Shown piece after piece: positions 18,203 through 62,790 of a DNA stretch of 64,000 nucleotides. The notes beneath the pieces are model-generated. The model saw nothing but the letters and a program-made list of their open reading frames with translations. It ran no database searches and was not told where the DNA came from. The position numbers were made by a program, and so were the translations under genes. The DNA comes from Porphyridium purpureum (Eukaryota; Rhodophyta; Bangiophyceae; Porphyridiales; Porphyridiaceae). Position 1 is the first letter of the stretch. Each line of letters begins with the position of its first letter. The stretch covers positions 124,001 through 188,000 of the forward strand of contig VRMN01000017.1 of assembly GCA_008690995.1 (NCBI GenBank), read 5' to 3'.

Positions 18203-21200
18203 ATGGCAAAGGGGAAGCGGAAGGGAGGCGGTGGTGCCGGTGGGAATGCAGGGAATGCAGGGAATCCAGGGAATGCAGGGAATCCAGGGAATGCAGAGAA
18301 TGCAGGGAACGCAGGGAATGCAGGGAATGCAGGGAATGCAGGGAATGCAGGGCATGCAGGGAATCCAGGGAATCCAGGGAATCCAGGGAATGCAGGGCAT
18401 GTGTCTGGATCTGGGGATGCGGGCGGAGGATCTGAGCGTGGGGTGCTGGCGGGAGAGCATGGTGCGGCTGCACAGCATGAGGGCGCCACCGTTGTGCAGC
18501 CCGTCGCGCGGACGCCGGGGTGGTTTGCGGCCGCAAAGGATATGGTGATGCCGACCGCCTCGGCTGCTGCGCCGGCGGCGGCGGCGGGGAAGCCAGATGG
18601 GCTGCAGAGCGCGGTGAAAGCGAGTGAGCCGGATGCATCGACGCTGGCTGCATCGGCTTCGTCGACGAAAGGTGAAAAGGAGAATGAAAGGTTGCCCGCA
18701 AGGGCTTCAACTTCCTGTTCGGAACCAGCAGCAGCTCCGCTGCGTGAAATGCAGCCGCAGACACGCGAGCGTGTGCTCGACGAAGGGGAGGATAGCGACG
18801 ATCAGCTCGTTCGAGACATGGTGGATTTTGCTGTCGCAAATGCAAACCGAATGGTTGCGCTCGAGCGCGAGCGCAATGCGGCGCTCAAGGCTGAAATGGA
18901 TCGTCTCGCGCGCGAGAACAAGGCACAGCACAGTGCGGAGCTGCGTGCAACGGTCGCGCAGATGCAGGCCGAGCTCAATACTCACCGCATGCAGGCGGAG
19001 CGCTTCAGTGAGTGCCAGGCGCAGCTGGTCCAGTGCAAAAACCAGCTCGCTGCGTATGAAACGCGACTTGCGGAAAGCGACACGGAGCTGGCACAGTCGC
19101 GGCGAAAAGTGGGCGACCTGGAGACGCTCTCGGCGCAGTTGGAAGCCCGCGCCCATGCGGCTGACGCCGCCGCGACCGCAAGCGAAGCCAAGAGCTTGCG
19201 CCTCGAATCTGAGCTTCACACGGTCACAATAGCTGTGGCCACGTTGCGTGCTGAGAACGCAGAGATCACCCACGTGCGCGCCGAGCTCGAGCGTGCGCGC
19301 GCCCAGGACGCCAACGTGATTGAGGAACTCAGTCGCACTCGCGATGAGTGCATCCGCTCGCGTGATCTTTGTGTCGCCGAGCACGCTCAGACCAAAGCGC
19401 AACTTGCTGCTTCAGAGCAAAGGGAAGCGCAAGCGCTGGCACGCGCGTCGGGTCTGGAGGAGCTGGGGAGTGGAATGGCGCACCGGCTGTCACAGGGCTT
19501 TGTGCGGGAAAAGCGGATGCTGAAGCGTGAGGAGGAGCTTCGGCGCGAGATCAAATCACTCACCGCGCAAGTCGTTCGCGTGGAGCACGCACAGGTGAAG
19601 ATTGAGGAGGCCAAGGCGGCTCAACGCGAACACGAGACACTAATGGTTCAAAAGATGAAGAGCGTGCGAGAAGAGATGGAGCGCATGCGAATGCACGTAC
19701 TGGAGAGCGAGCACCGCGAAAAGGCGGCAAAAGTCGAGGTGGTAAATGTTCGTAAGGAAAACGTCGACCTTAGCGACGAGCTGTTTGCTGCGCGGCGTGA
19801 GAATGCCGATGCGCGCACTCGTGCGGCGCTAAAGACAAAAGTGCTGGAAGCCGATGCTGCGTTCCGCATGTCTGAAGCGCTCACTACCAAGGTCAAGTTG
19901 TACGAAACCGCACTTACCGCTGTGTACAGGAGCAACACTTCGGCGTCTGGTGGACCTGTCGAAACCCTCGGTGCGGTCGGCTCGGCATCTGACTCAGCTG
20001 CGGGCGCTGGACGCGCACAGACGAAAGGGAGTACTGTGGAGGAAGGCCATCAAACTGAAGATGGTCGTCAAGATGCAAAGACAAAAGGCACGGCAGGTTC
20101 TTTTGTCGGGCAAAGCGGAAGGGTTGCTGGCAGCGTTGGAAGTGGCTCGACGTCGGCACGTTCGCGGTCGAGCGCGGGTGCATCTTTCCGCGATCAAATT
20201 GATAGCGCGTCGCAGCAGGTAGAGGGCATCCGCAGTGCTCGTCGCCGGCTTTGGTTTGACGCAGAGGAGCGAAGTCTTGCGGCTCCGGCTACATCCGGAA
20301 CTAGCGATACATCAAACCTAGCCAGCACAAGTGCGGGGGTGGGTCTCAACGCAAAGGCGCCCGTTGCCATAGCCGCCGAGCTGGCGCGAGAGTTTAATCG
20401 CGCCGACCGTGCTTACTCTCACGCCAAAACCACGCATTCCAAACTGGCGTCCGCGCCCATCAGTCAGTACGTCTCAATTGCATCACTTCATACGCGTGGT
20501 ATTGGCACGGGGGTGACAGTGTCCACATCATCTGCTCCTTTGAGCAGTATCGGCACTGGTACTAGCACCGGTCCGAGTAGCTCGACCGTGGCAGTCGCGA
20601 CGACCGGTATGACCAGCAGCCAGTCTGGTGAGATTCCGGTAGAAGAGCTCGCGGACGCGGCAATGAACAGCATTGACATGATTACGGCGGAGAATCAAAA
20701 GGAGGCCGCGTTGAGGCGCGCCAAGGAAGACGCGGAGCGCGAGCTGGAAGGTTCTCGTGCCCTGCTGAAAGCGCACCAGGACTCGCTCGAGGCTTTCCGC
20801 GCGCAACTCGAGGAACAGTTGCAGTTACGTAGTGAGCTTGAGGCCGAGCTCGACCATGCGCGGCTTGGCATTTCTGGCTGCAATCTCGTCATTGAGGCCT
20901 TGCAGGAGCGCTCCGTGGTGCATGACGATGAGCTTCGTGAGCGTCTGACGCTTGACGCGCTTGCCACAGCTTCGGGGGCCGCAGGCGTTTCTTCCGGTCC
21001 GGACGCTGAAATCAGTGCAGAAATCCTCAAGGAGTTCCGCGCCGTCATGTCGAGCCTTGCCAGTGGCAACAGTGGTGGCTCGGATAGTCGTTCTGCGGCA
21101 ACCATGCAGAACCAGGCACGCTTGGAGGAAGAAGTGATGATGCTAAAGGAGCTCACGGAAACGCGCGGAATGCAGCTGGAGGCGCTTCGTTCTGAGCTTG

Positions 21201-24200
21201 AGGCGCGCGAGCGGGATGTTTCTTCACAAACCAAGGCACTGGGGGAAGGTCGGTACGAGTATGAGAAAAAGTGTGCTCAGCTGAAGGAGTCGCAGGGCGC
21301 AGTCGCGGCGCTTGAGCGCACTGGGCTGCAGCTTCAGCAGAACCTGAGAAATGCAGAATCCGAGAATCGTGCCCTTACGGATGTCGTTGCTGCTCGTGAT
21401 GCTGAAATCTCTGCGCGGGCGCAGGAGCTTGCTCGTGTACGAGCCAGTCTGGACGACTCGCGCGCGAACGCCGCAGCGTTGTCTGATGCGCTGGATTCAA
21501 CAAAAGCGCGACTGTCTGCCGCGGAGCAGCACAGTGGAACGCTGCAGCGAGAACTGGACCAGAGCCGCACAGACTTTGCGGCAAAGTCTCGCGATCATGC
21601 AGAAAGCGAGGCTAGGTGCGCCGAGGCGCGCGCCGAGATCGGGCGTCTGGAATCCGCACTGGCGGACGCGCACACGGCCATTGATATGCACGAGAAGAAG
21701 GAGGACGAGCTGGAGGATACCATAAGCCGCGAGCAGCTTGCGCTCGGTGCACTTCATAAACGACTGGCCGCACAGGAACTTCTGGTAGGGAGCGTGCGCA
21801 CCGAGGTTGACTCGCTCAAGTCTACGCTGGAGAAGACCGAGAAGGTCAAGCTGGGCCTCGAGATGGATCTTCAGCAGGCCCGGGACCGCGTGACGGGCCT
21901 GACAGATTCATTGGAGAAACGCGCGCGGACGGCGGGCGAGCTCGAAGCGCAGCTTGCGGTCGCAAACAAGGAGAAGCGAAAGCTGGAAAAGCGTCTCGCT
22001 CGCGCCGAAGCGGACAAGTCTGACGTTGAGAAAGTGCTTCTCGTGAAAGAGCGCACAATCGTGGAACACACGCGGCTGGCAAGATCGTTGTCGCTCTCGC
22101 AAACCAATCGGATTGATACGCTTGTTGAGAAGCAGCGGGTCGCTGGCATCGAAGCAGAAGAGATGTCGCGCAAACTATCCGCGGTGTCGCACAAGTCAGA
22201 CATCCAGGCGGAGGACATTCGCATCCTGCGCGAAGAGCTGGATACTCTCGAAAATGCGTTGAGCGAGTCAGAGGAATCGCTCAAGAACGCGCATGCACTT
22301 TGCGATGAAAGGGAGAAGGAGAAGCTTGAGCTGGAGTCGTCGTTGCATGCCACCACTGCTGAGCTGCGCAAGACAGAGATTGCGCTGCAGGACACGCAGC
22401 ACGCCCTGGCAGAGACGCGCGACGGCCTGTCGTCGGCAATGGGAGACATGCAGCAGCTCAATTCGCTGGCCAAGGAGTGGCACATGGAACTGGTGAGCAC
22501 AAAGGATGCGCTGAAAGACGCGAACAAGACCATCAATGACAAGTTGGAGGAACTGCGCCTTCAAAATATGCGAATCGCAGATTTGGAGAAGGCGCGCGCG
22601 CAGATGGGAGTTGAGCAAGCCGAGCGTGAGGCGACGATTGCACGTCTTAGCCGGCAGTTGAGCGAAGCTCAGCAAAGCATTGCACAGTTGGTGCAAAACG
22701 TAGACGCCAGCAATACCGAAGTCGCGGAACTCAAGGCGCAGGTGCATGAGCTGCGCCACCGCCTCGGCGAGGCGCACTCGGATCTCCAGGCCGCAGAGAT
22801 CCAGAAGAGTGCTGCCCACGAGCGTGAAGCAAAATTGGAGCGTGCGCTTGCAGTAGCTTCCGCGGAACTTGCGCGGCATCGCCGCAAGCATCTAGAGTCG
22901 GACACACGTTGCGTCGAGCTTGAAACAGAAATCGAGATTTTTAAGAAGAATCATCGTGGGTCCAGCGGCTCCATCTCGCGCGGTGTTTCGCCTAGTACTG
23001 GAGTAGGCGTCGTGATGCCATCGCAGGGAGATCCGCTGGGTCGGCTTCAGAGGGAGTATGCAGCGAAAATTGCGCTAACAGAAAAGCTCGAGACATCACT
23101 GGCGACCAGTGAGGCGCTGGTGCAAAAGGTGCAGACAGAGAACGATGAGCTTTCCGCGCTTCTCAAAGCGCGCTCCGAGCAGTTGGACGAATCACAGCGC
23201 CGGCTGGAGCGCGTGGAGCGCGAGATTTTGTCAATGGAGCAGGCGCTCAAGCCATCTGGTGAGGCCTTTGAACCACCTCAGCTCGAAGCGCTACCCGGAG
23301 AGACCTCCCTCGGCCCCGTCGCCGAAAAGTCGTCGCAATTGGCACACTGGGCAGCACGCATCGACTCAAAACTGCACGCCACGGAGAAGCAACTGAGCGA
23401 CAAGGAGGATGAGCTGCGGCAAAGTGGCGTCCGCATGGCGGAATTAGAGGCAGTGATTGTACGGCTACGGTCAGAATTAGACGCCCAGCTCGCAGCGGGA
23501 GAAACGTTACAGACGCGCCATCGTGAAGAACTGGCTGAGCTAGACGCCAAGATGGCCCGCGTACATGCGGAGCACGATGCAGAACAGGAGCGTATGCGAG
23601 CCGCGTTGATGGAGGCGGACACGGAACGGGAGCAGATGCAAGCCATTCAGGAAGCCTTGCGGTTACAGGTCGACGATGCTCGCGCAGAGCTTGGTGCACG
23701 GGAATCTACAGTTTCACAGTTGACAGCCGAGCTCAGTGTGCAAACGAAGCGCGTTGCCGCCCTGGACCGCGAACTTGCGCAACTCAAGAACGCCAGTAGT
23801 GCGGTGTCGGGCAGAAACCTGAAGATGGAGGACAACAGCTCAAGCCTGGCTCGGCTGGAGAAGGAGCTGGCGGAGGCAAGCGCACGAGAGGCCGAGCTGA
23901 GCAAGCAGGTCGCCGAGCTGGAACCGCTAGCACGCAAGAGTGCTTATGCGTCGCACGCCCTTGAGGATATGAATCGCAAGCTGCGCGAGGTGGAGAAGAA
24001 CTCGATGCAGCGGCTGACGCGTAGCGAGGCCGAACTGCGCATCCGCAATGAACAGATTCGGATTCTGGAGGAAGAATGCGCCAAGGCGCGCTCAAATTAC
24101 GCGGCGGTTCGAAGCCGGATGCTCGCTGCGGATTCGTCGTTGTCTTCATCATCCAATGCGCCTCCGGTTCAAGAGCTTGTCGAGTCAGAGCTGCAGCACG

Positions 24201-24562
24201 CGGCGGGTACTGCGCGCTCTCGTGCTGTGCAGGCCTTTGTGACGGCGCGCTTCAAGCTGGCCAACGTGCGTGACTTGATTGCGGCGAAACGCATGGTGCA
24301 TATTGTCGGCTCGGACGTTGGCCTAGGTAATTGGAACGTGATGGCATCGCCGATGCTAAAGGCTGTACAAACGCTACCGGACGGCACGCTCATACTTTGC
24401 CGTGAGCTTGTGCTTCCTCGTCATGGCGCACCCATTGAGTACAAGTATGTCGCAGAGAGTGCAGACGGAACCACGGTGCAGTGGGAATCAGGTGAAAATC
24501 GTAAATTGCACGTTGCGCAAGTCGGTGATGTGGTCGAGATTCGCGACTCGTTCAATATGTGA
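18203..24562 (+). CDS. Giant coiled-coil protein with a C-terminal CBM20 starch-binding domain
   Basis: 2119 residues in one frame from the ATG at 18203. After a short basic head, residues 14-66 are a Gly-Asn-Ala/Pro repeat coded by a 9-bp minisatellite. A low-complexity linker follows, then long heptad-rich coiled coil (about residues 190-600 and 830-1960, dense in Glu, Ala, Leu, Arg and Lys) with a Ser/Thr/Gly-rich break around 580-820. The last 110 residues form a CBM20: VHIVGSDVGLGNWNVMASP, then IEYKYV, and GTTVQWESGENRKL, with the two aromatic sites typical of starch-binding domains. CBM20 binds alpha-glucan. Joined to a scaffold-like rod, it suggests a protein that tethers something to cytosolic floridean starch or shapes the granule, loosely like the plant PTST proteins (coiled coil plus CBM48). 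No catalytic domain and no signal peptide are visible. The domain call is firm; the role is inference. Confidence 0.88.
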   Translation: MAKGKRKGGGGAGGNAGNAGNPGNAGNPGNAENAGNAGNAGNAGNAGNAGHAGNPGNPGNPGNAGHVSGSGDAGGGSERGVLAGEHGAAAQHEGATVVQPVARTPGWFAAAKDMVMPTASAAAPAAAAGKPDGLQSAVKASEPDASTLAASASSTKGEKENERLPARASTSCSEPAAAPLREMQPQTRERVLDEGEDSDDQLVRDMVDFAVANANRMVALERERNAALKAEMDRLARENKAQHSAELRATVAQMQAELNTHRMQAERFSECQAQLVQCKNQLAAYETRLAESDTELAQSRRKVGDLETLSAQLEARAHAADAAATASEAKSLRLESELHTVTIAVATLRAENAEITHVRAELERARAQDANVIEELSRTRDECIRSRDLCVAEHAQTKAQLAASEQREAQALARASGLEELGSGMAHRLSQGFVREKRMLKREEELRREIKSLTAQVVRVEHAQVKIEEAKAAQREHETLMVQKMKSVREEMERMRMHVLESEHREKAAKVEVVNVRKENVDLSDELFAARRENADARTRAALKTKVLEADAAFRMSEALTTKVKLYETALTAVYRSNTSASGGPVETLGAVGSASDSAAGAGRAQTKGSTVEEGHQTEDGRQDAKTKGTAGSFVGQSGRVAGSVGSGSTSARSRSSAGASFRDQIDSASQQVEGIRSARRRLWFDAEERSLAAPATSGTSDTSNLASTSAGVGLNAKAPVAIAAELAREFNRADRAYSHAKTTHSKLASAPISQYVSIASLHTRGIGTGVTVSTSSAPLSSIGTGTSTGPSSSTVAVATTGMTSSQSGEIPVEELADAAMNSIDMITAENQKEAALRRAKEDAERELEGSRALLKAHQDSLEAFRAQLEEQLQLRSELEAELDHARLGISGCNLVIEALQERSVVHDDELRERLTLDALATASGAAGVSSGPDAEISAEILKEFRAVMSSLASGNSGGSDSRSAATMQNQARLEEEVMMLKELTETRGMQLEALRSELEARERDVSSQTKALGEGRYEYEKKCAQLKESQGAVAALERTGLQLQQNLRNAESENRALTDVVAARDAEISARAQELARVRASLDDSRANAAALSDALDSTKARLSAAEQHSGTLQRELDQSRTDFAAKSRDHAESEARCAEARAEIGRLESALADAHTAIDMHEKKEDELEDTISREQLALGALHKRLAAQELLVGSVRTEVDSLKSTLEKTEKVKLGLEMDLQQARDRVTGLTDSLEKRARTAGELEAQLAVANKEKRKLEKRLARAEADKSDVEKVLLVKERTIVEHTRLARSLSLSQTNRIDTLVEKQRVAGIEAEEMSRKLSAVSHKSDIQAEDIRILREELDTLENALSESEESLKNAHALCDEREKEKLELESSLHATTAELRKTEIALQDTQHALAETRDGLSSAMGDMQQLNSLAKEWHMELVSTKDALKDANKTINDKLEELRLQNMRIADLEKARAQMGVEQAEREATIARLSRQLSEAQQSIAQLVQNVDASNTEVAELKAQVHELRHRLGEAHSDLQAAEIQKSAAHEREAKLERALAVASAELARHRRKHLESDTRCVELETEIEIFKKNHRGSSGSISRGVSPSTGVGVVMPSQGDPLGRLQREYAAKIALTEKLETSLATSEALVQKVQTENDELSALLKARSEQLDESQRRLERVEREILSMEQALKPSGEAFEPPQLEALPGETSLGPVAEKSSQLAHWAARIDSKLHATEKQLSDKEDELRQSGVRMAELEAVIVRLRSELDAQLAAGETLQTRHREELAELDAKMARVHAEHDAEQERMRAALMEADTEREQMQAIQEALRLQVDDARAELGARESTVSQLTAELSVQTKRVAALDRELAQLKNASSAVSGRNLKMEDNSSSLARLEKELAEASAREAELSKQVAELEPLARKSAYASHALEDMNRKLREVEKNSMQRLTRSEAELRIRNEQIRILEEECAKARSNYAAVRSRMLAADSSLSSSSNAPPVQELVESELQHAAGTARSRAVQAFVTARFKLANVRDLIAAKRMVHIVGSDVGLGNWNVMASPMLKAVQTLPDGTLILCRELVLPRHGAPIEYKYVAESADGTTVQWESGENRKLHVAQVGDVVEIRDSFNM
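18242..18400. repeat. Coding 9-bp minisatellite, about 17-18 units
   Basis: Units of GGGAATGCA and GGGAATCCA, with a few variants (AGAGAATGCA, GGGAACGCA, GGGCATGCA), run head to tail. In the gene frame they encode GNA and GNP triplets. The unit length keeps any change in repeat number in frame. Confidence 0.92.
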
Positions 24563-58275: not shown

Positions 58276-61200
58276 TCACGAGCAATCCGTGCTTGATGGT
58301 GCTTTGGAGAAGAAGATGCACTCGTTTGTATGATGGGACAGCGTTCCGTTTCTCATGACTTGGTCCCACAGAGGACAATGACGACGGTGTTTTGTTAGCG
58401 CGTCTGCTACATTTTGTGTGCCAGAGATGTGGTGAAGTCGCGCAATTGAAAGCACATCCACGCTTTGTCGAACCATTAACAGCCGAATCATCATTCGTTT
58501 CTCATCAAGAGTCGTACCGTGTGCGACTGCGTCGTATATTTGCTTTGAATCCGTATACAGATCGATATCGACTGCCACCCCGGTCCGAAGCAGGTCAGCA
58601 CGCAGCGCTTCTGCGAAATCCAATGCTGCACACAGCGCCAGCAATTCCGCGCCCATCACGGAGTAAACTGCGTGGCGAGTTTTCTTTGAGACTGCGTGCA
58701 AGAAATGTACTGTGTCCGTATGGTCGCCGAGGAAAACCACGTAGCCAATTTGAGACGAGTAATCGCGGTTCGACGCGAACGATGCGTCTGCGTACACTCT
58801 GAACTTGAGTTTCTGAATGTCAAGTGGCCTGTAAATTAGAGAATACGCGTTGTTGGTCAAGTGCAGCCGTTTCGTCACACTGAGAAGAGTCTTGGCTTGC
58901 GCTGAGTCGAACTGTGCATGTGTTACTTGAGACAACTTCGCAACGTGGTACAACAAATCTGGCCGCCCGTTGTTGGACACATATGCTACTCGTCCGCGGA
59001 GAGATCGGAAACTGTCAAAGTCAGTCGGCAATTTCACTCTGGAAAGATTCTTGCGCACGTAATCGAAAATCGAGATGCGGAAGCCGCCGCCGCCGCAACT
59101 GCTCACTTGCGCTCCGTTGAAATTAAAAGGTATGCCTTGGACGCCTTTGCTCTCGAATGTGTCCGTTGCGGCCCGTTCCGCATTTAAACATAGCTGATTG
59201 CCGAAAAAAATGGTGTCATCGACCAGTAGACCTAGAGCTCCCGAAAATTGCTCATCAGGCCGGTGGAACATTAGACATGAGTCCAGTGCAGTCGGAACGA
59301 AGCCTCTCGCTTTAAGGTGATTGCTGATGGTATGATACCAAAGCGTGCCTGATTCTCGTAAGCCGTAAAGGGCCTTTTCGAGCTTGGCGTGCAATGGCCA
59401 CTGTTGTCCTGTGATATCGGTGAGAATGTCCCTTGTCGAGTCGTCGAGCCGCAAGTACACGTTCCTGATTAAGGAGTATTCGCTTTGTATGTATGCTTGT
59501 GAAAAGTCACGATAATACAAAGGCTTGTTCATGGAACAGCAGAGTGAAACGACGGTCCGAAACGAACAGCGAGTCAAGACAGGCGAGTTGATCGAAGTCA
59601 AATGCGCCTCGCGGTCTGCAAAGCGATGCCCGCAGGCTACCAGTCTAGCTTTGTACGAGCCGTCCGCCTTCACGCGGTCGTCGAATCTGGCCTTGACGAT
59701 ATTGGCGTGGGCTGGCGGTGAACGACATGGAGAGAATGTTCCGCGGTTCACCAATCCTTGGAGCTCCCGGTATCGCGCGTCGTCGAATAGATGCGTCTCC
59801 TGCTCGTCTTGCTCCGTGTGATAGATGAATCGCGCGATAGTCTCACCCATCCGATAGACTTTTGTATTATGAATCGAAAACACTTGCTTTCTTGGACGCC
59901 CAGTGGTGGAAGGGATGACCACTGTCACATGGCTGCCGTCCAACCTTTCACAAGTGTACGGTCCGGTGTACTCATAAGACGCATCTCTGCGTACCAGAAC
60001 GCCAATGCCTGGAACGATGGCGTCGCTGTCGCGAGGGTACTCTGGCGCTCGTGAACGGCGCGCTCGTGTGAGGCGCTCACGAGAAACGGATATCTCGTAC
60101 TCCTTGCGAGCCAAAAGCATGGCCTTGATTCGATATTCTTGATCGTTTCTGGAGTCGTGCTGCGCGACTTCCGGTCGTAGGGCCATGCGCGGAACCGTAC
60201 CAAAAACCAGGAGAGACGGTATCGTGCCGTCGGGTCCGGCGGTGCAATTCATAGCGCGGGTAACGATGGCGAGCCGGTCGTTTACGCTTAGTCTTTCCGT
60301 TTCGCCACTTATCTTCAAGTAAATCTTTCGCACCGTCTCATGACTGCGTTCGACGGAGCCTAAAGTCCAGTGTGCTTCCACCGGGACTGCATCAACGACA
60401 GTTCCTTCGTTACCAAGCATCCGTTCGAGATCTTCCGACACCAGTACGCGTTCCCGATCGAGTCGAATGCGGTGCGGTGCTCCGAAATACGTAATCCACG
60501 TTGTGAAGATGGTTGAGTAGATGTTTTGAGCCGTTGCACCGTCGCACTGGGCCGCTACGCTCCAGCCCGTGCCATCGCAGCGCAGGTGCATGATCTTTAT
60601 CGAGCCACTTCCCTCTCTGTCATTTGGAATAAACAGAAAATCGAGTGATATCGCGTGGTTGAACGTGACTTCGACATCCGCGGATGCTTTGTAAGTTGTC
60701 CGTCGTCCTGCATACCACTGGCAGGTGGGACAGTCGCGTATGCGCGTAGTCAGTCGCTCGAGCTCGTCATGGCCAAGTGGTTCGTCGTTCAACCGCAGAA
60801 TTTTCGCTATGTTCCTTGCACTGGTGTGTCCAAATCGACGATGTAGAGTCATGAGCTCGTCTATTGTATACAGCAACGAATTTGGTTCCGAAAGACAACT
60901 TGGATCGGAATCTTGTTGGTGCATGCAGAGAAAGTCGACAGCAAGGTGTCCAGACATCATCTTGTAGAGTGGGATAGCGAATCCTGGGCCGGTCAGGCGC
61001 GGAGGGCGTGGACGTCGAATGAGGTTCATATGGTGGCGCTCTTGCACGTCATTGCCGAGCAGGATAGGTATTTTTCCTGAAACCACGAACACGTTAAACG
61101 ACAGGAACGCTTCACTTCCGACGGGGACACGTACTTCTCCTTGTCCAAGAACGGTGAGTGCCGTTCCCCAAACAACCTTTGGTGGTTTGTGCACCTCACG

Positions 61201-61338
61201 AAGCGCGCCGCTTTTCCCACATGCATGGCAGTACGACGCGTACGCTTCGACTCCCGCTAAAGAATAAGGGGAGCCCGGGTCTACGACTACAGCACCCCAG
61301 CCGGGAAGGCGTGGCATGTGGCCTGTTATCGTGTACAC
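58276..61338 (-). CDS. copia pol frame (protease, integrase, reverse transcriptase, RNase H)
   Basis: About 1020 codons. In order: a protease-like VVVDPGSPYS near the start, the integrase zinc motif (HRRFGHTS, then CPTCQWY), the integrase core starting ISLDFLFIPN, the reverse transcriptase with YYRDFSQAYIQ and the LLVDDTIFFG active-site box, and RNase H with VYADASFASNRDYSSQIGY. This order is diagnostic of Ty1/copia. It is a retroelement part and no host role is implied. Confidence 0.93.
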   Translation of the reverse strand: MYTITGHMPRLPGWGAVVVDPGSPYSLAGVEAYASYCHACGKSGALREVHKPPKVVWGTALTVLGQGEVRVPVGSEAFLSFNVFVVSGKIPILLGNDVQERHHMNLIRRPRPPRLTGPGFAIPLYKMMSGHLAVDFLCMHQQDSDPSCLSEPNSLLYTIDELMTLHRRFGHTSARNIAKILRLNDEPLGHDELERLTTRIRDCPTCQWYAGRRTTYKASADVEVTFNHAISLDFLFIPNDREGSGSIKIMHLRCDGTGWSVAAQCDGATAQNIYSTIFTTWITYFGAPHRIRLDRERVLVSEDLERMLGNEGTVVDAVPVEAHWTLGSVERSHETVRKIYLKISGETERLSVNDRLAIVTRAMNCTAGPDGTIPSLLVFGTVPRMALRPEVAQHDSRNDQEYRIKAMLLARKEYEISVSRERLTRARRSRAPEYPRDSDAIVPGIGVLVRRDASYEYTGPYTCERLDGSHVTVVIPSTTGRPRKQVFSIHNTKVYRMGETIARFIYHTEQDEQETHLFDDARYRELQGLVNRGTFSPCRSPPAHANIVKARFDDRVKADGSYKARLVACGHRFADREAHLTSINSPVLTRCSFRTVVSLCCSMNKPLYYRDFSQAYIQSEYSLIRNVYLRLDDSTRDILTDITGQQWPLHAKLEKALYGLRESGTLWYHTISNHLKARGFVPTALDSCLMFHRPDEQFSGALGLLVDDTIFFGNQLCLNAERAATDTFESKGVQGIPFNFNGAQVSSCGGGGFRISIFDYVRKNLSRVKLPTDFDSFRSLRGRVAYVSNNGRPDLLYHVAKLSQVTHAQFDSAQAKTLLSVTKRLHLTNNAYSLIYRPLDIQKLKFRVYADASFASNRDYSSQIGYVVFLGDHTDTVHFLHAVSKKTRHAVYSVMGAELLALCAALDFAEALRADLLRTGVAVDIDLYTDSKQIYDAVAHGTTLDEKRMMIRLLMVRQSVDVLSIARLHHISGTQNVADALTKHRRHCPLWDQVMRNGTLSHHTNECIFFSKAPSSTDCS

Positions 61339-61356
61339 GTCGCACGCCTGTGCGAG

Positions 61357-62790
61357 TCACTCGGCGCCAGCTTGATTGTCGGATTGTATCAGTGGCACGT
61401 GCTCATGCTCGGAGTCTTCGTCGTCGTTCACGAAGTCTTCCGCTGCGCTCTGCGATGGCCAATGTTCTGTTTCGACCAGATTCACATTTGTGTCAGCGCT
61501 AATCGCGCACTGCGATGCAATGTGCCCGTCCCGTCCACATCGGAAGCACCTCACACGACGGGCCTGATTTGTCGCAGACGGCGCTCCGCCTCTGCCAGCA
61601 GAGCTTCCGTACCGCCTGACCTCGCTTTGGCCAGATTGCCCTAGGCGCCGCGCCGGTCCGCCTGGTGCGCGCTGGAACAGGAGGGAGGACGAGCCGCGAG
61701 GCGCCTCCTTGTCTTGAGCGCTCAGGAAGTTGCGAACAGATTGCAACAGCTCGTTCCCACTCAGGTGCATGAAGGATCGCGCCATTTCGGTGTGGTACCC
61801 GCCGTCCGACATGGCACCGAGCACGTAAGTTGCCACAGACCACTGGTTATTGTGGTCTGGGCCCGCTGACGCCGCGTCTGCACTGATCTGTGCGGTGAGC
61901 CGGTCGAATGCCTCCACCCGAGGAAGGTCGTCACGCAGATAGTGCTGAAAATTAGCACCGCGGAGGCGAAACAGCGCAAGACGACTGGTCAATTCGACGC
62001 GGAATTCTTTGGACATAGCATCCAAAATTTCGATGAATTTTGTCCTTGGATGCCTTTTCACGAACTCAGATGCCTGCCCGGCCAACGTTAGGGGCAAAAT
62101 GAGGCGGATATCGGAGTCTGACAGTGAATAAACGTGCTTAACTTCGAGAAGTTTGTCTCGCCAAACACGGAAGGGTACCTGCGCTTCGTCTCCCGAGTAC
62201 ACGTGTTTCTCCAGTGCCTTGAGCACTCCACCGATCACGGCCGGGGGCACTGTTGCAGACGAGGACGCGGGTGCCTGACGAGAAGAGTGGGCACCATGGT
62301 CTTCGCGTGGGGCGTAAATCGCGAAGTTTTCAGGGAGCGGGATGTTCGAGTCGAACACATCCCGTTGGACGGCGTACCTGGCAAACTGCATCGTTACGAA
62401 CGGCCCGGCGGCACGCAAAGTTTCCAAAGTGACAATCTGATCGATAATCACCGACGCAAACTCATCCCGGGTGAGGTAGTCGCACGAGCGAAGAAGCCGG
62501 TCCCAGTCCGGGTTTTCGGTTCTAATCGCTAGCCACGGATACTCGCCCGTCTCGTCGTCCTCGATGTCGACATACTTGCGAGGCTGCTGCCCGGCCACTT
62601 GAAAAGTACCGGGGGCTCCCGATAGACGCGGGCTACTGCTCGTAGTGTGGTCCCCGCCCGTCGATGGCGCGCCGACTGGGTTGGCCGGGTCACTCGAAGT
62701 GGGCGACGGGGAATCTCCAACGCGGCCGGGAGCACGCGATGCTCCACCGGCCGCTGCGCCGGAGCGCGTCCTTGGTCTATCCCTTGTCAT
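61357..62790 (-). CDS. copia gag frame with CCHC zinc knuckle
   Basis: About 477 codons from an ATG at 62790, forty bases inside the 5' LTR. The C-terminal half contains VRCFRCGRDGHIASQC, a C-x2-C-x4-H-x4-C nucleocapsid knuckle, after an Arg/Gly-rich stretch. The middle resembles the copia-type gag polyprotein fold. It precedes the pol frame on the same strand, as is usual in the family. Confidence 0.88.
   Translation of the reverse strand: MTRDRPRTRSGAAAGGASRAPGRVGDSPSPTSSDPANPVGAPSTGGDHTTSSSPRLSGAPGTFQVAGQQPRKYVDIEDDETGEYPWLAIRTENPDWDRLLRSCDYLTRDEFASVIIDQIVTLETLRAAGPFVTMQFARYAVQRDVFDSNIPLPENFAIYAPREDHGAHSSRQAPASSSATVPPAVIGGVLKALEKHVYSGDEAQVPFRVWRDKLLEVKHVYSLSDSDIRLILPLTLAGQASEFVKRHPRTKFIEILDAMSKEFRVELTSRLALFRLRGANFQHYLRDDLPRVEAFDRLTAQISADAASAGPDHNNQWSVATYVLGAMSDGGYHTEMARSFMHLSGNELLQSVRNFLSAQDKEAPRGSSSLLFQRAPGGPARRLGQSGQSEVRRYGSSAGRGGAPSATNQARRVRCFRCGRDGHIASQCAISADTNVNLVETEHWPSQSAAEDFVNDDEDSEHEHVPLIQSDNQAGAE

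Follow-up and report, generated by a model that had tools for sequence, protein, structure and literature searches.

SAGA1 and SAGA2 of Chlamydomonas, proteins of ~180-190 kDa with predicted coiled-coil regions and a CBM20 starch-binding domain near the C-terminus (PMC10823261, PMC13167743), are the nearest known kind to the protein presented here. As reported in PMC13167743, their CBM20s bind starch in competition with maltoheptaose, the saga1/saga2 double mutant lacks the starch sheath at the pyrenoid, and both proteins localise, and probably initiate, starch. The same account confines the SAGAs to the Volvocales and expects functional counterparts elsewhere, its authors forecasting that the sheaths of other algae depend on unrelated proteins with carbohydrate-binding domains and Rubisco-binding motifs of their own. 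Here, the gene at 18203..24562 (+) of a window of 64,000 nucleotides from the red alga Porphyridium purpureum is described (contig VRMN01000017.1; C38:124001-188000 in the 22.16-Mb assembly of 46 contigs that was searched as the genome). It encodes P0001, a protein of 2119 aa with a giant coiled coil and a C-terminal CBM20, which is regarded, with a probability of about 0.55, as tethering or organising starch granules at their surface in the cytosol. Its relative from a metagenome is called P0002, and other loci of the genome carry L-numbers.

The likeness to the SAGAs is taken from their published description and consists of a long coiled coil, a CBM20 near the C-terminus and the absence of an enzyme domain. 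Consequently, the architecture of P0001 is not new in kind, and the preliminary description of this DNA went too far when calling it an undescribed system; its reference, the PTST family with CBM48, also gives way to the SAGAs as the nearest kind. By analogy, P0001 and the SAGAs may share a working principle. The SAGAs are chloroplast proteins carrying Rubisco-binding motifs, and the pattern W[RK]xx[LIVA], which we take to be the form of that motif, had 0 matches in P0001 and P0002. Outside the green algae, red algae included, the storage polysaccharide is reported to be made outside the chloroplast; its contact with the pyrenoid is then through the envelope and limited to pyrenoids of the stalked or bulging type (PMC10473226). 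A role of P0001 as a pyrenoid-matrix tether is thus unlikely, and the protein, SAGA-like as its architecture appears, is not classed as a SAGA member. It meets the carbohydrate-binding half of the forecast made by the SAGA authors, though its starch should lie outside the plastid.

Other described proteins share single features with P0001. The Arabidopsis proteins PTST2 and MFP1 are likewise non-enzymatic coiled coils, PTST2 with a carbohydrate-binding module, and the thylakoid-bound MFP1 is reported to determine the site of granule initiation (PMC13167743). P0001 gave no Pfam hit to CBM48 or AMPK1_CBM at E up to 1, and is therefore unlike the PTST family. PTST2 carries CBM48 rather than CBM20, and acts in the plastid. 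Mammalian STBD1 uses a C-terminal CBM20 to link an alpha-glucan particle to cell machinery, as P0001 may do, but it has an N-terminal hydrophobic anchor (PMC12785236) that is absent from P0001 (maximum hydropathy 1.01). The small L013 protein of P. purpureum (175 aa, hydrophobic N-terminus and CBM20) is closer to this layout than P0001. To our knowledge, STBD1 has no giant rod. In Chlamydomonas, Cre09.g394510 combines a CBM20 with a t-SNARE and so, where starch borders on the matrix, joins this domain to machinery of cell structure (PMC10473226), differing from P0001 in having a SNARE domain instead of a giant coil and in belonging to a green-algal chloroplast. PTST and MFP1 in plants and the SAGAs in green algae act in the plastid, a compartment other than the cytosol. 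For the start, count and placement of granules in the red-algal cytosol, P0001 is a concrete candidate factor, with a predicted glucan site that can be tested.

The C-terminal CBM20 domain

CBM20 is the sole Pfam family above its cut-off in P0001 and occupies aa 2027-2109 (24281..24529, +; PF00686, 43 bits with the cut-off at 23.3, E 4e-11). When the final 150 residues were compared with the sequences of the PDB, two of these matched at E <=0.01, 2vn4 and 1ac0, both glucoamylases and each matched within its starch-binding domain. In the alignment with these glucoamylase domains, the predicted glucan site includes W2044 as its first tryptophan (LGNW; 24332..24334, +), K2081 (EYKY; 24443..24445, +) and W2094 as its second tryptophan (QWES; 24482..24484, +). 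All three are kept in P0002, and the main-site columns read W, K, W, E, N in both proteins. At the level of sequence, the Pfam score and the aligned W/K/W residues bear out the well-formed C-terminal CBM20 that had been claimed. Comparable site residues are named for laforin, namely Trp32, Lys87 and Trp99 (PMC8703398).

The CBM20 alignment comprised 21 other domains of the genome, those of P0001 and P0002 and the two PDB fragments, leaving out further stretches of L015 and L017, counted by Pfam but missing from the genome search, as well as both domains of L024, a locus near-identical to L023 with which it may be one gene assembled twice. In the CBM20 tree, the domains of P0001 and P0002 pair with a support of 99/98, and, as 17 of the 20 inner branches are open, this pairing is the only relation taken from it.

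The coiled coil

Regarding the region ahead of the CBM20, the LIVMFYW residues of aa 197-1985 recur with a peak at 3.5 residues (z = 13.6, 0/500 shuffles as high). As controls, the citrate synthase of the window gave z 1.9, its peak also lying at 3.5 (17/500 shuffles), and a second globular protein of the window gave z 0.6 (141/500 shuffles). The heptad periodicity of the giant coiled coil proposed earlier is thereby upheld, but not its continuity, as there is no single unbroken rod but segments parted by low-complexity linkers.

The segments were chosen by a scan for proline/glycine-poor, charge-rich stretches and trimmed by hand, totalling 1,481 residues, and four of the five peak at 3.5. 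Segment 1 (aa 197-579; 18791..19939, +) peaks at 3.4 and reaches z 5.2 at 3.5, and segment 2 (aa 820-915; 20660..20947, +) is weak (z 2.9, 6/500 shuffles). They are followed by segment 3, the main rod (aa 959-1593; 21077..22981, +; z 9.8), segment 4 (aa 1610-1690; 23030..23272, +; z 7.6) and segment 5 (aa 1700-1985; 23300..24157, +; z 7.7). An earlier periodicity test counting alanine as hydrophobic was weak for P0001, with z from -0.1 to 3.0 over the five segments; since 15.6% of P0001 is alanine, the test was redone without this residue, and both results stand. In P0002, the first coil is weak (z 2.3, 7/500 shuffles) and the other three reach z 13.5, 5.0 and 7.1; in the kinesin L020 described below, two stretches of coil gave z 4.6 and 2.2. 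With the customary rise per residue of a coiled coil, ~1,480 coil residues would measure ~220 nm if fully extended.

NCBIfam models showed generic coiled-coil or low-complexity similarity to P0001, far under cut-off (best SMC, 85.3 vs 567). Neither in Pfam nor in NCBIfam did any enzyme family pass its cut-off, in agreement with the claimed lack of an enzyme domain.

The relative P0002 and the conserved blocks

When the full-length P0001 was searched among 5.8 billion proteins, with 7,984 candidates scored, a single hit was obtained (E 3.5e-249). This protein, P0002, has 1952 aa, derives from a JGI metagenome contig of 9,324 bp and presents its parts in the order of P0001, with 39% identity over 1,198 columns by BLASTP and 36.9% over 1,832 aligned residues in the global alignment. 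Its C-terminal CBM20 scores 49.4 bits, no other Pfam family passing the cut-off in the scan; the precomputed domain list of P0002 also has PF19220 and PF24161. Because the full-length P0002 shares the whole architecture, both proteins are taken to represent a real protein family.

Conservation is a mosaic: identity is 36% in the coil (aa 197-1985), 48% in the CBM20 and 65-68% in five blocks, A-E, defined as windows exceeding the maxima of permuted data at the 99% level. The highest identity in any window of 40 residues, found in block A, is 87.5% (0/2000 permutations as high), and the variance of identity along the pair is 4.3 times the permuted value, a test that demonstrates clustering of identity, not function. 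Block A covers aa 498-575 (19694..19927, +; 67% identical to P0002), block B aa 1126-1188 (21578..21766, +; 68%), block C aa 1321-1361 (22163..22285, +; 66%), block D, which holds W1426, aa 1380-1439 (22340..22519, +; 67%), and block E, directly upstream of the CBM20, aa 1919-1981 (23957..24145, +; 65%). The blocks look like candidate docking sites. Two short stretches of the linker are also conserved, aa 665-690 (20195..20272, +), whose W684 is kept in P0002, and aa 726-756 (20378..20470, +). Altogether, five of the six tryptophans of P0001 are kept in P0002, two of them within the predicted glucan site.

Other searches gave no further relative. With aa 1960-2119 alone there were 0 hits among 810 candidates, though P0002 includes this region; the search relies on shared 5-residue words, so this lack of hits means little. 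The query P0002 365-560 recovered P0002 alone among 7,977 scored candidates, and scans with two short peptide patterns each from the P0001 and P0002 alignment produced 114 matches in prokaryote genomes and 76 in viral contigs, 0 of them confirmed. A profile of both proteins found no match among PDB chains at E 0.001.

Reading frame and N-terminus

As had been claimed, the open reading frame is present at 18203..24562 (+), where it runs uninterrupted and closes with a stop codon; of the 2100-residue coiled-coil protein announced there, the coil and the CBM20 stood and the length became 2119 aa. In each of the other five frames, this part of the DNA is broken by 29 to 88 stops. The GC content by codon position in the coil and CBM20 (0.66-0.71 / 0.42-0.43 / 0.59-0.68) is coding-like and resembles that of two compared genes of the window, whereas the first 70 residues (0.69 / 0.66 / 0.40) are unlike the coding pattern and the low-complexity linker at aa 580-820 (0.61 / 0.66 / 0.53) departs from it. 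The P. purpureum genome is described as having 22.1 Mb and only ~200 introns (PMC8831791), so that a gene of this length with one exon is to be expected. In the genome, the search with P0001 gave one full match, the sole other being the CBM20 of a small protein (25 bits), and the gene is single-copy as far as this search shows.

The low-complexity N-terminus, aa 1-196 (18203..18790, +), is presumably flexible and is poorly conserved, with 11 of 52 aligned columns identical to P0002. It contains a 9-bp minisatellite of 17.8 copies (18242..18401, +), found by repeat analysis, which translates into a collagen-like (G-N-A/P)n stretch and has no counterpart in P0002; the Pfam Collagen model gives it 21.5 bits, below the cut-off of 27.2. 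Owing to this minisatellite origin and to its absence from P0002, the collagen-like N-terminus was dismissed as a meaningful feature. The translation start might lie downstream of the repeat.

A hydropathy scan over 19 residues found no strongly hydrophobic segment in either protein, the highest mean being 1.01 in P0001 (at aa 706) and 1.38 in P0002. In addition, the N-terminus of P0002 starts hydrophilic, which speaks against a chloroplast location.

Proposed role and alternative explanations

The mechanism proposed for P0001 is that its C-terminal CBM20 would grip alpha-glucan, either at the granule surface or in long malto-oligosaccharide primers, with the multi-segment coiled coil of ~1,480 residues forming a dimeric or higher-order rod. 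Blocks A-E would dock partners, such as a membrane site, a cytoskeletal site or a starch synthase, and granules would be started or held in the cytosol where the rod is anchored. Support for a granule tether or organiser also comes from the analogy with SAGA1/SAGA2 and from the other CBM20 proteins of the genome, which include glucan enzymes as well as a kinesin and a formin. The preliminary description had proposed a system for granule initiation, tethering or positioning analogous to PTST; apart from its novelty, this idea is partly supported, being borne out in the non-enzymatic coiled coil, the single copy found, the kept CBM20 site residues, the distant relative and the N-terminus without strong hydrophobicity.

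Several points weigh against this role. The CBM20 shows no clear second glucan site: the columns that we presume to form it hold H, T (or S) and L in P0001/P0002, and a CBM20 with a single site can bind weakly, avidity being what a dimer would supply. The fold of the domain is assigned from sequence alone, and AlphaFold gave the last 170 residues a mean pLDDT of 39.7 with a two-row alignment. The family has only one relative of P0001 found so far. Moreover, SAGA1 is reported to arrive at the periphery of the pyrenoid even when a mutant has no starch (PMC11649565), so the localisation of such a protein need not depend on its CBM20.

Three other explanations have to be weighed. P0001 could be a golgin-like linker, its N-terminal half sitting on the plastid envelope, the endoplasmic reticulum or the Golgi and its CBM20 capturing finished granules so as to hold or move them, without a role in their initiation. 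A lone CBM20 placed terminally on a long rod resembles a capture head, the conserved blocks are spread along that rod, and the genome does encode a CBM20 protein with a hydrophobic C-terminus (L016) and others with less clearly hydrophobic N-termini (L013, L010). Against it speak the want of a strongly hydrophobic segment in both proteins, the absence of a Rab/Arf-binding domain among the Pfam and NCBIfam hits and the failure of the P0001 and P0002 profile to match the PDB at the threshold given above, and such a linker is considered unlikely.

The same rod might instead serve starch turnover, recruiting to the granule either an autophagy membrane or enzymes (glucan phosphatases, dikinase or amylase), much as laforin complexes and STBD1 do for glycogen. 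STBD1 is described as a CBM20 receptor in glycogen autophagy (PMC12785236), and 10 of the 17 CBM20 loci of the genome are glucan or sugar enzymes, which provides candidates acting on the same target. These enzymes, however, bear a CBM20 of their own and hence need no targeting subunit, and the membrane anchor of the STBD1 type is missing from P0001, making a turnover scaffold very doubtful. It is also rather improbable that the CBM20 no longer acts on starch and that P0001 has a structural role as a coiled coil in the nucleus, the spindle or the cortex, its domain having another ligand: the rod has a generic likeness to coiled-coil models, SMC among them, at scores far under cut-off, and only one of the two classical sites is evident, but the main site keeps its W, K, W, E and N in spite of only 37% overall identity to P0002, and the conserved tryptophans include the two of that site. 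A cytosolic tether or organiser at the granule surface is preferred.

Other CBM20 proteins of the genome

The CBM20 profile search of the assembly gave 24 matches, grouped into at least 17 loci including that of the window, a lower bound because the search scores the best candidates only and reads no introns. Pfam was run on the 16 other loci with start codons picked by hand, and 10 of them encode enzymes of glucan or sugar metabolism: three dual-specificity phosphatases, one protein of the water-dikinase type, two of the trehalose-phosphate synthase type, three GH77 and one GH13. The remaining six comprise one protein with an LCM methyltransferase domain, three with CBM20 only (L013, L016, L019), one kinesin and one formin.

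The kinesin, L020, has 1417 aa in one uninterrupted frame (L020:1685-5938, C8:575400-585300, -) and joins PLAT, CBM20 and a coil to a kinesin-14-like motor. The motor lies in the C-terminal half (347 bits), with KIFC3, which we take to be a kinesin-14, as its best PDB match. Its CBM20 site residues are F, K, W, N and A, an alteration that makes glucan binding less sure, and L020 is a possible candidate for a starch-granule motor. The formin, L011, has 1110 aa, also in one uninterrupted frame (L011:2538-5870, C43:4642500-4652300, -), with two CBM20s ahead of an FH2 domain (213 bits; best PDB match, DAAM1). Its first CBM20 holds all five site residues and the second aligns without the second W; this protein is a possible candidate for an actin nucleator on granules. 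Six kinesin frames of the genome pass the cut-off, one of them with CBM20, and a further frame has two sub-cut-off matches; FH2 is found in five frames, one with CBM20. The further frame, L040:5543-7999 (-), encodes a long coiled coil together with a kinesin-like motor of divergent sequence, both matches being under cut-off. A search of the genome for myosin gave no match, but its controls gave none either.

Predicted as they are, the CBM20-kinesin and the CBM20-formin suggest an interface between granules and cytoskeleton, and, though outside the window, they have a more direct bearing on where granules are placed than the giant coil by itself. We know of no counterpart of such an interface in the green lineage. 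In the literature searched by keyword, no CBM20-bearing kinesin acting on starch was found, nor was a granule-cytoskeleton interface, the formin side of which was covered by keyword only and not inside the texts; the matches listed for a CBM20, coiled-coil, starch-granule tether concern Chlamydomonas. The two proteins render granule transport and inheritance directly testable.

Regarding membranes, L016 (298 aa; L016:4856-5752, +) has a CBM20 and a hydrophobic C-terminal segment (mean hydropathy 2.36), and L013 (L013:4811-5338, -) a CBM20 and a less clear N-terminal segment (1.84). L010 (L010:4750-6969, -) combines a domain of the leucine carboxyl methyltransferase (LCM) family with a CBM20 at the C-terminus, and its N-terminus is moderately hydrophobic (1.99). 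As an internal stretch of L012, a water-dikinase type protein presumed to be soluble, already reaches 1.98, the segments of L010 and L013 are unsure as anchors and only L016 stands out, so that L016, and less clearly L013, are candidate granule-membrane tethers. Tentatively, and with less confidence than is placed in P0001 itself, a CBM20 kit may be envisaged that handles cytosolic granules like organelles, through microtubules (L020), actin (L011) and membranes (L016, perhaps L013/L010), with P0001 as the scaffold placing or starting granules.

Further carbohydrate-binding proteins were noticed along the way. L014 and L021 are trehalose-phosphate synthase/phosphatase proteins with an N-terminal CBM20, and one such CBM20 gene is reported in another red alga (PMC8703398). 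AMPK1_CBM (CBM48-like) domains are numerous, with 20 matches in the genome, including L037:982-2748 (-), L034:1501-2523 (-), L038:1309-3255 (+) and L039:1-1746 (+). Among the eight AMPK1_CBM loci examined in part were a triple-CBM protein lacking an enzyme domain, one with a short charged N-terminus, one that matches TPR weakly, and a starch synthase bearing its copy at the C-terminus. In the window itself, an RVT_2 reverse-transcriptase frame adjoins a zinc-knuckle frame at 58276-62790 (-), a retroelement or its remnant.

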